Source of the DNA: Clostridia bacterium
GTDB taxonomy: Bacteria; Bacillota; Clostridia; Christensenellales; Aristaeellaceae
Direction: 5' to 3'
DNA length: 64,000 nt
Assembly (NCBI GenBank): GCA_017519405.1
Contig: JAFWSH010000004.1
Span: 22,974-86,973, forward strand
This document shows positions 9,737 through 12,718 of the stretch, piece after piece. Under the pieces are notes generated by a model that was not told where the DNA came from, searched no databases, and saw only the letters and a program-made list of their open reading frames with translations. The position numbers and the translations under genes were made by a program. Numbering within the stretch: position 1 is the first letter of the stretch; each line of letters starts with the position of its first letter.

Positions 9737-10402
9737 ATGCTGAACCCCGAGACCATGACCCCCGCCCGGGAGAAGAAACCCCGGCTGCTGCTCCACTGCT
9801 GCTGCGCCCCCTGCTCCTCCGCCACCCTGGAGCAGCTCCAGGCTCTCTTCGACGTGGACATCTACTACTACAACCCCAACATCGAGCCCTACGAGGAGTT
9901 TCTCAAGCGGGCCGGGGAGGAGGAGCGCTTTATCGCCGCCTACCGCCCGGACGGCGGGGTGTCGGTGATCGTGGCGGACTATGACCACCAGGCCTTCGAA
10001 GCCATCGCCCGGGGCCGGGAGGAGATCCCGGAGCGGGGGGAGCGCTGCTATCTGTGCTACGAACTGCGGATGCGCCGCACGGCGGAATACGCCCTGGCCC
10101 ACAGCTACGACTGCTTCACCACCTCCCTGTCCATCAGCCCCCACAAAAGCAGTGCCTGGATCAACGAGATCGGCCTGCGGCTGGAGAAGGAGCTGGGGAT
10201 CGCCTTCGTCCACAGCGACTTTAAGAAGCACGACGGCTACCACCGCTCCATTCTTCTGTCGAAGGAATACGGCCTGTACCGCCAGGACTGGTGCGGCTGC
10301 GTCTACTCCCGCCGGGAGCGGGAGGCCTGGAAGGCCCGCCGGGCGGCGGAGGCCCCGGAGGAAGGGACAGGAAAAACAGCGCAAATACAATCCGGGCATT
10401 GA
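9737..10402 (+). CDS. queH: Epoxyqueuosine reductase QueH
   Basis: 221 residues of the DUF208/QueH family, which reduces epoxyqueuosine to queuosine in tRNA. Metal/cluster cysteines are visible: HCCCAPC (20-26), RCYLCYELR (C104, C107) and DWCGCVYS (C186, C188). SISPHKS and GYHRSILLSKEYGLYRQ are family-typical. Probably cotranscribed with the phosphatase. Its stop codon (10400-10402) overlaps the -35 of the methionine leader promoter. Confidence 0.93.
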   Translation: MLNPETMTPAREKKPRLLLHCCCAPCSSATLEQLQALFDVDIYYYNPNIEPYEEFLKRAGEEERFIAAYRPDGGVSVIVADYDHQAFEAIARGREEIPERGERCYLCYELRMRRTAEYALAHSYDCFTTSLSISPHKSSAWINEIGLRLEKELGIAFVHSDFKKHDGYHRSILLSKEYGLYRQDWCGCVYSRREREAWKARRAAEAPEEGTGKTAQIQSGH

Positions 10403-10427
10403 CAGGGGTTTGTGCCCGTGCTATGCT
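10399..10427 (+). promoter_or_regulatory. Sigma-A promoter of the Met leader / NlpA-like gene
   Basis: TTGACA (10399-10404), 17 bp, TATGCT (10422-10427). Transcription would start near 10434, about 28 nt before the leader ATG. Confidence 0.85.
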
Positions 10428-10461
10428 GAATCCGCCATTTGAGAGAGAAGGAGGGGCTCCC

Positions 10462-10551
10462 ATGACGAACCGCGGCCGGATGAACATGGACATGCGCATG
10501 TGCCGTATGGGCATGTGTTTTTGTGCCGCCATGAGCCCCCGCCGTGTCTGA
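10462..10551 (+). CDS. 29-aa methionine-rich leader peptide
   Basis: ATG 7 bp after a strong AGGAGG. Eight of 29 codons are Met (codons 1, 7, 9, 11, 13, 16, 18, 24), with Cys at 14, 19 and 21; the core reads MNMDMRMCRMGMC. Stop TGA at 10549-10551, 17 bp before the terminator stem. Size, codon bias and position match an amino-acid leader peptide rather than a functional protein. Confidence 0.8.
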   Translation: MTNRGRMNMDMRMCRMGMCFCAAMSPRRV

Positions 10552-10568
10552 GACGAGGCAGGAAATAC

Positions 10569-10601
10569 CGGGGAGGGCTCATGAGGCCTTCCCCGTTTTT
10601 T
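10569..10601 (+). terminator. Intrinsic terminator of the attenuator
   Basis: 10-bp stem CGGGGAGGGC / GCCTTCCCCG (one G-U), loop TCATGAG, followed by six T. It precedes the NlpA-like gene, so it acts as an internal, conditional terminator. Confidence 0.85.
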
Positions 10602-10636
10602 ATGCCGACGACAGCACTGCAAAGGAGGAGCCGCCC

Positions 10637-10717
10637 ATGCTTCCCATCCGATGGTACCCCGCCGGATGCAACCGGGAGAGCCGCCGAATGCGCCCCTTCC
10701 CCGTGTCCGGTTCCTGA
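10637..10717 (+). CDS. Possible second short leader ORF (26 aa)
   Basis: ATG 6 bp after GGAGGAG, ending in TGA at 10715, between the attenuator terminator and the NlpA-like gene. The peptide begins MLPIRWYPAGCNRESRR and has no similarity I recognise. CGGATGC (10663-10669) inside it is complementary to GCATCCG (10727-10733). Whether it is translated is unknown. Confidence 0.4.
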   Translation: MLPIRWYPAGCNRESRRMRPFPVSGS

Positions 10718-10767
10718 TCCGATCCCGCATCCGAAGCATCGAAGAAAATGAGAAAAGGAGAATCACC

Positions 10768-11622
10768 ATGAAGAAGTTTGTTGCTCTGCTCCTTGCTGCC
10801 CTGCTGGTGCTCTCTGCCGTCTCCGCCTTTGCGGACAAGATCACCATCGCCGTCCCCAACGACGCCACCAACGAGGGCCGCGCCCTCATGCTGCTCCAGG
10901 ACGCCGGCGTCCTCAAGCTGAAGGAAGGCACCGGCCTCAAGGCCACCAAGGACGACATCGAGGCCTTCCTCTCCGTGGATGAGATCGAGTTCTACGAGGT
11001 GGAGGCCGCCATGGTCCCCAGCGTGAAGGACGACGTGGACTATGCCATCATCAACGGCAACTACGCCCTGGACGCCCAGATCGATCCCGCCACCACCCTC
11101 CTGCGGGAGAAGGCCGTGGACAACCCCTATGTGAACGTGGTGTGCGTCAACGCCGGCAATGAGAACACCGACCTGGCCAAGGCCCTGGCGGCCGCCGTGC
11201 TGAGCCAGCAGGTGGCGGACTACATCAACGAGAACTACGCCGGCGCGGTGGTCAGCGCCGTGGCCGAGCCCACCGACGGCTATGACGCCACCGTGGACTA
11301 CGACGCCCTGAACGGCCAGACCATCGTCATCGCCTGCTCCCCCACCCCCCACGCCCAGATCCTGGCCATCGCCAAGGACATTCTGGCCGCCAAGGGCATC
11401 ACCCTGCAGATCGTGGAGCTGCCGGACTATGTAACCCCCAACACCGCCGTGAACGACGGCGAGGCCTTTGCCAACTACTTCGCCCACATCCCCTATCAGG
11501 AGGACTTCAACGCCGAGAACGGCACCAACCTGGTGTCCATCGCCGGTGTCCATGCGGAGCCCCTGGGCCTGTATGGCGGCAAGCAGGCGGACCTCACCGC
11601 CCTGGGCGTGGCGGCTGAGTAA
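10768..11622 (+). CDS. NlpA/MetQ-like substrate-binding protein with swapped halves (circular permutation)
   Basis: 284 residues; signal peptide MKKFVALLLAALLVLSAVSA with probable cleavage after AFA (22) and no lipobox cysteine. Family blocks are unmistakable but in reversed order. The part normally C-terminal in MetQ comes first (VPNDATNEGRAL 29-40, INGNYALDA 95-103, NPYVN 119-123). The part normally N-terminal comes last (SPTPHAQIL 191-199, LPDYVTPN 218-225, NYFAHIPY 236-243, EPLGLY 264-269). A linker of about 25 residues joins them. By family it binds methionine or a similar amino acid outside the cell. No metN or metI is adjacent. Start chosen for AGGAG 7 bp upstream. The Met-rich attenuator upstream supports a methionine role. 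Confidence 0.85.
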   Translation: MKKFVALLLAALLVLSAVSAFADKITIAVPNDATNEGRALMLLQDAGVLKLKEGTGLKATKDDIEAFLSVDEIEFYEVEAAMVPSVKDDVDYAIINGNYALDAQIDPATTLLREKAVDNPYVNVVCVNAGNENTDLAKALAAAVLSQQVADYINENYAGAVVSAVAEPTDGYDATVDYDALNGQTIVIACSPTPHAQILAIAKDILAAKGITLQIVELPDYVTPNTAVNDGEAFANYFAHIPYQEDFNAENGTNLVSIAGVHAEPLGLYGGKQADLTALGVAAE

Positions 11623-11644
11623 GCAACCCCGCTCCCCCTTCTTC

Positions 11645-11673
11645 GGAGCCGTCCGGCCGGGCGGCTCCTTTTT
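11645..11673 (+). terminator. Terminator after the NlpA-like gene
   Basis: Stem GGAGCCG / CGGCTCC (11645-11651 with 11662-11668) followed by T5. Confidence 0.85.
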
Positions 11674-11690
11674 CGTACATTTACACAAAG

Positions 11691-11723
11691 TTCACACACG
11701 CGCCTTCCCGGGGGGTATATAAT
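11691..11723 (+). promoter_or_regulatory. Probable promoter of the Gld-like ABC operon
   Basis: TATATAAT at 11716-11723 is a good -10 about 30 bp before the ATG. The nearest -35-like hexamer, TTCACA (11691-11696), is at a long spacing (19-21 bp). Confidence 0.5.
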
Positions 11724-11755
11724 AGAATGGCCGGAGAAGCCGGCCTGGAGGCAGC

Positions 11756-12718
11756 ATGATTGAACTGCGGCATGTGACCAAGCGCTACGGGGCCAAGGAA
11801 GCCCTGCGGGATGTGAGCCTCACCGCCCCGGACGGGTGCGTCCTGGGGCTTTTGGGCGTCAATGGCGCCGGAAAGACCACCGCCCTGAACCTGATGACCG
11901 GATACTTTCCCCCGGACGGCGGCCAAGTGCTGGTGGACGGACGGGACATGCAGGAGGACCCCCGGGGCTGCAAGCGCGCCATCGGGTACCTGCCGGAGGT
12001 GCCGCCCCTGTATGACGAGATGACGGTCCGGGAGTTCCTGGCCTTCGTGGCCCGGCTCCGGGAGGTGAAGGCCCGGGGCATCCCCGCCCATATCCGGGAC
12101 ATTGCCGGCCTGTGCGGGCTGGAGGAGGTCTTCCACCGCCCGCTGGGGAAGCTCTCCAAGGGGTTCCGGCAGCGGGTGGGCTTTGCCTCGGCCCTGTGCG
12201 GGGATCCTCCCACCCTGATTTTTGACGAGCCCACCGTGGGGCTGGACCCCCGGCAGGTGGTGGAGATCCGGGAGCTGATCCGCACCCTGGGAAAGACCCA
12301 CTCGGTGATCTTCTCCTCCCACATGCTTTCGGAGGTGCAGCAGCTCTGCTCCCAGGTGGTGATCCTCCACCGGGGGCGGGTGGTGAAGCAGGCCGCCCTG
12401 GGGGAGCTCTCCGGCGGCGGGGAGCTCCTGCTGCGCCTGGAGGCGGCCGGCCCCGCGGCGCGGCTGGTGCCCGCCCTGAAGGGGCTGCCCTGCGTGCGCC
12501 GGCTCCGGGTGACTCAGGGGAGCAGGCCGGACCTCACCGGCTGCGTCCTCACCTGCGACGCCGCTCCGGATCCCGCCCGGGGGGATGCCCAGACCCAGAT
12601 TTTCCGGCTGCTGTGCGCCCTGGACATGCCACTGCGCCTGCTGGCGCCGGAGGGGGACAGCCTGGAGGAAGTTTTTCTGCGCCTGACCCGGGGCGAGGAG
12701 GAGGGAGAGACGCCATGA
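11756..12718 (+). CDS. ABC transporter ATP-binding protein (GldA-like)
   Basis: 320 residues. Walker A GVNGAGKTT (34-42), Q-loop region, signature LSKGFRQRVG, Walker B TLIFDEPTVGLDP and the H-loop SSHMLSE. An extended C-terminal domain of about 100 residues follows. GGAGG lies 4 bp before the ATG. Translationally coupled to the permease through ATGA. With the next two genes it matches the ABC-2/Gld three-gene arrangement widespread in Firmicutes; cargo unknown. Confidence 0.9.
   Translation: MIELRHVTKRYGAKEALRDVSLTAPDGCVLGLLGVNGAGKTTALNLMTGYFPPDGGQVLVDGRDMQEDPRGCKRAIGYLPEVPPLYDEMTVREFLAFVARLREVKARGIPAHIRDIAGLCGLEEVFHRPLGKLSKGFRQRVGFASALCGDPPTLIFDEPTVGLDPRQVVEIRELIRTLGKTHSVIFSSHMLSEVQQLCSQVVILHRGRVVKQAALGELSGGGELLLRLEAAGPAARLVPALKGLPCVRRLRVTQGSRPDLTGCVLTCDAAPDPARGDAQTQIFRLLCALDMPLRLLAPEGDSLEEVFLRLTRGEEEGETP

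Follow-up and report, generated by a model that had tools for sequence, protein, structure and literature searches.

The window analysed here is a 64,000-nucleotide stretch of a Clostridial genome, and it encodes on its forward strand a MetQ/NlpA-type substrate-binding protein. The product matches Pfam Lipoprotein_9 (2.6e-63), in agreement with the NlpA/MetQ-like gene named in a first-pass annotation of this DNA, and its best NCBIfam matches are MetQ/NlpA models at scores under their curated cut-offs. Methionine would be its expected cargo. The gene behind metQ (11756-12718) encodes another ABC ATPase, which is not metN-like and has GldA as its best NCBIfam match, below cut-off, so that metQ in the window stands alone. 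A complete second operon, metN-metI-metQ2, is present in the same genome on contig C20. The features relevant to this study are the following.

10399..10427, forward strand: sigma-70-type promoter TTGACA-17-TATGCT, from a promoter scan
10449..10454, forward strand: Shine-Dalgarno sequence (SD) AGGAGG of the leader ORF, read on the sequence
10453..10459, forward strand: element 1, GGGGCTC, in the leader SD region, predicted partner of element 2 (exact complement of 10533-10539)
10462..10551, forward strand: uORF1, 29 codons, putative leader peptide MTNRGRMNMDMRMCRMGMCFCAAMSPRRV
10530..10539, forward strand: element 2, predicted antiterminator strand in the uORF1 tail, also able to pair with element 1
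10569..10601, forward strand: predicted intrinsic terminator (elements 3:4) with T6, from a hairpin scan with shuffle control
10575..10583, forward strand: element 3, terminator 5' arm and loop, complementary to element 2
10637..10717, forward strand: uORF2, MLPIRWYPAGCNRESRRMRPFPVSGS, 3' of the terminator, with a CGA-ATG pair at 10685-10690
10768..11622, forward strand: metQ/NlpA-type substrate-binding protein gene, 284 aa
about 2450-2666 of locus L168 (G000:C20:98000-107000): Cys-rich leader and terminators before metN-metI-metQ2

The promoter has its -35 hexamer TTGACA at 10399-10404 and, after a spacer of 17 nt, its -10 hexamer TATGCT at 10422-10427, preceded by TG; it scores 10/12, and the scan of 10200-11900 returned 2 promoter-like sites where 0.2 were expected. 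A QueH-family ORF (9737-10402; Pfam 1.5e-64) has its stop codon within the -35 hexamer, the overlap being 10399-10402.

The peptide encoded by uORF1 contains 8 Met, start included, and 3 Cys, with Met codons at 10462, 10480, 10486, 10492, 10498, 10507, 10513 and 10531. The stem of the terminator spans 10569-10595 with 11 pairs (-20.7 kcal/mol) and is followed by T6 at 10596-10601. Two mutually exclusive pairings can be drawn for the tail of uORF1: CATGAGCCC (10530-10538) is the exact reverse complement of GGGCTCATG (10575-10583), and GAGCCCC (10533-10539) is that of element 1 (10453-10459). The promoter, the SD, the Met-rich ORF, the terminator with its T-tract, the antiterminator complement and the pairing that protects the SD had all been proposed in the first-pass annotation; every one of them is present, and both complementarities are exact. 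As a whole, the 181-nt leader has a better predicted fold than 197 of its 200 shuffled versions (z -3.3).

Searches with Rfam models, those of the SAM riboswitch and the T-box included, found no family at gathering score in the window leader, and up to an E value of 5 returned just two weak and unrelated matches, far under their gathering scores. Neither a SAM riboswitch nor a T-box is supported for this leader, as neither covariance model matches it. At gathering score, 20 related loci likewise contained no SAM riboswitch or T-box, the only matches being a cobalamin riboswitch (L063) and a tRNA (L189). In the window's own genome (80% complete) seven T-boxes were found at E 0.001, one of them above cut-off, and no SAM riboswitch; SAM riboswitches were present in 8 of 10 genomes searched.

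Comparative analysis of metQ upstream regions

A close MetQ, at an E value of 1e-60 or lower, was encoded in 42 of 150 same-family genomes, and 30 of these 42 loci, the window's included, were read. A scan of named genomes found at least 567 relatives, and the 80 best loci were added. The resulting set comprises 110 metQ upstream regions, with some genomes present twice, from both sources, and without L002 and L003, which represent a weak paralogue; its titles include uncultured Clostridia, Oscillospiraceae, Christensenellaceae, others and Oscillibacter sp. ER4 (L083). To count as a Met-rich leader, an ORF had to be SD-led, 14-50 codons long and located within 480 nt, and to contain 4 or more internal Met.

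Such an ORF was found in 51 of the 110 regions, or 48 distinct ones, the window among them, after 3 duplicates were dropped. The remaining 59 regions, including that of the same-genus genome G138 (L005), are without a Met-rich ORF by these criteria. When L010, whose leader is cut by a contig end, is omitted, at least 4 internal Met are seen in 51/109 real regions versus 11/2,180 shuffles and 1/109 reverse complements, and at least 5 in 45/109 versus 0/2,180 and 0/109. Within the 48 leader ORFs, ATG accounts for 331 of 1,500 internal codons in frame versus 12 and 4 in the other two frames, although the loci are related and these counts therefore not independent. Codons for the amino acid that the downstream gene would handle are thus over-represented in the SD-led ORF. 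Conservation of the Met run, which the first-pass annotation had set as a test of its proposal, is borne out, since the run recurs in 48 distinct loci and it is the remainder of the peptide that drifts. In the window's own genome, the pattern Met-x-Met-x-Met-x-Met has 5 matches (control, 1), one of which is the window leader, the other four lying in stop-to-stop frames of 114, 74, 64 and 4 aa, so that the genome may contain further Met leaders.

The surrounding arrangement is also recurrent. A promoter scoring at least 9/12 lies in the 110 nt ahead of the leader ORF in 43 of 47 distinct loci (L110 being too short). In 44 of 48 loci a metN-like Walker A motif was found no more than 700 nt beyond metQ, and 3 loci have none. 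Separately, CTATAG-like repeats were seen upstream of TATTGGACA in L005, L006, L008, L012, L016, L019, L023 and L024; judged by their sequence, these may mark another class of metQ promoter, with repeats that we presume could form a LysR-type operator.

A hairpin with a T-tract follows the leader stop at a distance of 10-48 nt in all 51 Met-rich regions. Terminators of -16 kcal/mol or better occur in 38 of 48 real loci and in 0 of 240 shuffles of the same stretches, and 25 of the 240 shuffles contain a hairpin equal to the weakest real terminator. The competing helices were examined by an alignment-free partner swap, in which the ORF tail of each locus was set against the terminator 5' sides of its own and of other loci. 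The antiterminator duplex averages -17.7 kcal/mol with the locus's own terminator and -14.6 (sd 0.40) after swapping (0 of 20,000 permutations), whereas the 5' half of the ORF, used as a control, shows no preference (-11.29 own, -11.25 swapped). The duplex of SD and tail has a mean of -18.4 kcal/mol when the partner is the locus's own and of -15.7 after swapping, with 0 of 20,000 permutations reaching the real value (n=47, without L110); its control goes slightly the opposite way (-10.9 own, -11.5 swapped). The two swaps do not count as independent evidence, since elements 1 and 3, each rich in purines, pair with the same tail. This preference for own partners, seen for antiterminator and SD protector alike, indicates that elements 1:2, 2:3 and 3:4 are kept while their letters change, and it bears out the helix conservation that the first-pass annotation had likewise set as a test. 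In a subset of loci the tails share TTCGATGGGCTTTC, which is read in frame 1 (L009, L022), frame 2 (L011, L029) or frame 0 (L038) and is therefore kept there as RNA, not as peptide.

Ribosome position and interpretation of the leader

The spacing of these parts agrees with the ribosome footprints that the first-pass annotation had envisaged, with a ribosome at the stop codon covering the antiterminator strand and one stalled at Met codons 7-18 leaving it free. Medians over the 48 loci are 7 internal Met, 20 nt from the last Met of the run to the antiterminator, 10.5 nt from the antiterminator end to the stop and 30 nt between stop and terminator; the corresponding distances in the window are 17, 10 and 17 nt. 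On the assumption that a ribosome covers 15 nt ahead, the antiterminator is uncovered with the ribosome on 295 of the 331 Met codons; in 7 of the 48 loci, at least two Met codons are nearer to the predicted antiterminator than this. Together with the partner swap, this spacing describes a competing antiterminator that would be covered at the stop and free at the codon run.

Equilibrium folding with a virtual ribosome does not add to this evidence. The mean probability of the full terminator is 0.78 with the ribosome on a Met codon, 0.96 with it at the stop and 0.93 without a ribosome, so that the terminator wins even during the stall, which counts against a switch. With the ribosome on the last eligible Met, the probability falls below 0.5 in 9 of 48 loci versus 0 of 48 with shuffled spacers, the window remaining at 0.96. 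Known attenuators of Escherichia coli behave alike in three of the four evaluable cases (thrL, hisL and leuL 0.95-0.96; pheL 0.04; trpL not evaluable), which means that the test does not discriminate, and we set it aside as proof of a switch. In folds computed before the 3' arm is made, the 5' arm is paired upstream with a probability of 0.71 when stalled, 0.61 with a shuffled spacer and 0.47 at the stop; the effect is weak, with 36 of 48 loci exceeding their own shuffles and 0.5 being passed by 46/48 real and 47/48 shuffled leaders. Switching in attenuators is generally held to be kinetic, and the switch in the window would have to be so as well.

At the level of sequence and comparison, the parts, their spacing, the in-frame selection for Met and the two competing pairings are established, and very probably they constitute a translation-coupled transcription attenuator that reads Met codons before metQ. 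This is the interpretation offered by the first-pass annotation, and the comparative tests of the Met run and of the helices support it. What the ribosome does, which signal it reads and which way the response goes we infer as follows. Transcription would start just ahead of the Met-rich ORF, at a site placed from the promoter. With charged elongator tRNA-Met plentiful, a ribosome at the stop codon would cover element 2 and the terminator would form before metQ; with charged tRNA-Met scarce, the ribosome would wait at one of the Met codons in the run, and element 2 would be free to pair with the terminator 5' arm and loop, allowing transcription into metQ and, in most relatives, also into the metN-like gene behind it. 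In an untranslated leader, element 2 would be held by the leader's own SD and the terminator would form by default. The same leader layout is shared by many Clostridia of gut and rumen, and it is a recurrent candidate for methionine sensing through the position of the ribosome, in bacteria whose riboswitches and T-boxes are better known.

A variant compatible with a Met-reading attenuator, and sharing part of its probability, is that uORF1 reads Cys together with Met as a general sensor of sulfur amino acids; we regard this as rather unlikely. Cys makes up 142 of the 1,500 internal codons and is interleaved with Met, and the metL leader peptide of Streptomyces, in the portion of the report available, ends in RCMCRRMCAF (PMC8079986). 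The evidence to be set against it comes from the second importer operon of the window's genome, where a promoter and an SD precede the ORF MVKGATMIRNFVCICLCCVFAVPSLG, followed by hairpins with T-tracts. A search for MetN in 100 family genomes gave matches in 13, of which three are close orthologues (79-83% identity) with the leaders MTVRQKMCCCPGCMIAALPL, MTNRKMMCCCSKRVFAAPTL and MSTRRDICCCMMCVFAALTR and a terminator behind each. In L212 the terminator taken is a second hairpin, 71 nt past the stop, and a nearer hairpin before TTTT is also visible. Leaders of the sister operons contain just 1-2 internal Met beside their CCC or CICLCC runs, and Cys sensing therefore seems to have a leader of its own, although the bias of Cys by frame (4/4/2, 4/2/1, 3/2/3 and 4/2/3) is far weaker than that of Met. 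The other 9 MetN loci have Met-rich leaders with 5-7 internal Met in 4 cases, and none was found in 5. On this reading, the codon run would predict the cargo, Met for metQ(NI) and Cys for metNIQ2. This suggests that the substrate of a MetNIQ-like importer may be readable from its leader codons, with Met and Cys distinguishing paralogues of one genome.

It is quite improbable that uORF1 instead encodes an arrest peptide, whose nascent chain would sense methionine, SAM or another sulfur metabolite directly and would drive the same RNA switch through the place of arrest instead of through tRNA charging. The run does not consist of Met alone, Arg (172 of 1,500 internal codons) and Cys being the next commonest residues in the 48 leaders, as an arrest peptide might allow. 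Arrest peptides are sequence-specific, however, whereas the 51 peptides have by eye no fixed residue pattern, their Met vary in number and place, and the reading frame of part of the tail differs between loci. Less probable still is a functional Met/Cys-rich metal-binding mini-protein that merely happens to be adjacent to metQ: Met and Cys residues do bind copper, but a terminator lies behind every leader stop, and the C-terminal part pairs with terminator and SD and differs in frame in a subset of loci (the search for leaders covered regions upstream of metQ, metY and metN). That the ORF and hairpins arose by chance in GC-rich DNA, in which hairpins form easily and a tenth or so of shuffles (25/240) match the weakest real one, can be dismissed in view of the Met counts, both partner swaps and the terminator shuffle control.

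A second open reading frame before metQ and metY

Arg-Met pairs, of which the CGA-ATG pair of uORF2 (an ORF absent from the first-pass annotation) is one, were sought in SD-led ORFs of 9-40 codons outside uORF1, with any Arg codon allowed before ATG. CGA is used in 60 of 66 non-redundant pairs outside uORF1 versus 10 of 51 inside it. With duplicates dropped, the CGA-ATG pairs come from 37 of 110 metQ regions and from 16 of 25 metY regions, 31 of the latter having been at hand and no start being found in 6. The codon that follows CGA-ATG (n=60) is TGA in 17 cases, TGT or TGC in 24, CGN in 15, TAA in 2 and another in 2. Peptide ends of the RANFRFGRM and NRESRRM types recur, as a conserved C-terminal motif of an arrest peptide might, but the codon behind the CGA-ATG pairs is one for stop, Cys or Arg in 58 of 60. 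In 4 of the 48 Met-rich leaders (L008, L012, L016 and L047) the leader itself is of a mixed type and ends in CGA-ATG-TGA.

A narrow RANFRF pattern has matches in 4 of 396 genomes, and these four, as well as a fifth from G074, all lie directly before a metY-like gene; in G074 the RANFRF-type frame continues into metY. One such protein was scored and exceeds the cut-off of the O-acetylhomoserine aminocarboxypropyltransferase model TIGR01326, the rest being assigned by close likeness. The metY of the window's own genome (G000:C22, L189; 73% identical) is preceded by the leader ORF MGMRRRCRSYAVLLSRNRM, which ends in CGA ATG TGA. At L174/L179, which are one locus, a Met/Cys leader, a hairpin with a T-tract and a uORF2 stand in series before metY. 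The pattern N-x4-CGA-ATG gave 23 matches in 10 genomes versus 7 for its reversed control, so that part of these matches must be due to chance.

Upstream of metY in L164 and L173-L176, CCTA.../...TAGG-like repeats surround the -35 region, and an ORF that resembles Rrf2 by eye adjoins metY in L164. We take these to be possible signs of CymR-type control.

In an assay of the his leader CGA was reported to be read slowly, according to the available part of that study (PMC4046918), and by analogy this suggests that CGA may have a stalling role in uORF2. Our tentative proposal is that Clostridial sulfur genes may have a two-stage leader, in which a Met- or Cys-run attenuator matching the transporter is followed, after the terminator, by a CGA-AUG peptide. 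If this were so, the second peptide, often N-x4-R-M and then stop, Cys or Arg, would be common to metQ and metY and able to stand alone, and uORF2 would sense methionine supply at the level of translation in a new way. With a slow CGA in the P site, the pause until Met-tRNA enters the A site might become sharper, or the nascent chain might arrest on ...RM. That an ORF with this near-invariant codon pair precedes metQ as well as metY suggests an additional layer in the control of sulfur genes, one not found in the literature searched.

Comparison with known systems

The attenuators of the trp, his, thr, leu and phe operons of E. coli combine a codon run, a terminator, an antiterminator overlapping the end of the leader and a protector pairing. 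All four are found in the window leader. It differs from the E. coli systems in its Met codons, in the use of the leader's own SD region as element 1 and in its Clostridial host, and leaders of the window type often have a second, CGA-ATG ORF behind them. SAM (S-box) riboswitches and T-boxes attenuate transcription of methionine genes in Firmicutes likewise, and the window leader is without a match to either.

Among the matches listed from the open-access literature, outside which most subscription papers fall, there was no Clostridial Met-codon attenuator and no CGA-AUG leader. The first-pass annotation considered a peptide attenuator unusual for Firmicute methionine genes, a view to be qualified in that Firmicutes do have peptide attenuators: as far as the accessible parts of the reports go, His leader peptides precede hisZ/hisS* in bacilli (PMC2965389) and a leucine-rich attenuator precedes ilvD in Staphylococcus aureus (PMC5794164), both concerning other amino acids and genes. 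The Cys-run leader of the second MetNIQ operon resembles the cysteine leader peptides of Actinobacteria; terminators were found behind the Cys leaders here, whereas the Mycobacterium regions, in the text consulted, are without a conserved terminating hairpin (PMC1262725).

The closest precedent, judging from the available portion of its report, is metL of Streptomyces lividans TK24, a methionine leader proposed before metNIQ (PMC8079986). It shares with the window leader a Met- and Cys-containing peptide before a methionine importer gene. The metL transcript is described there as leaderless and as missing a typical Rho-independent terminator, whereas the window leader has an SD, a terminator and an antiterminator. 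Against these sources, as far as they were accessible, Firmicute peptide attenuators and the Streptomyces metL are already known, and the Clostridial Met-codon leader is what is novel here.
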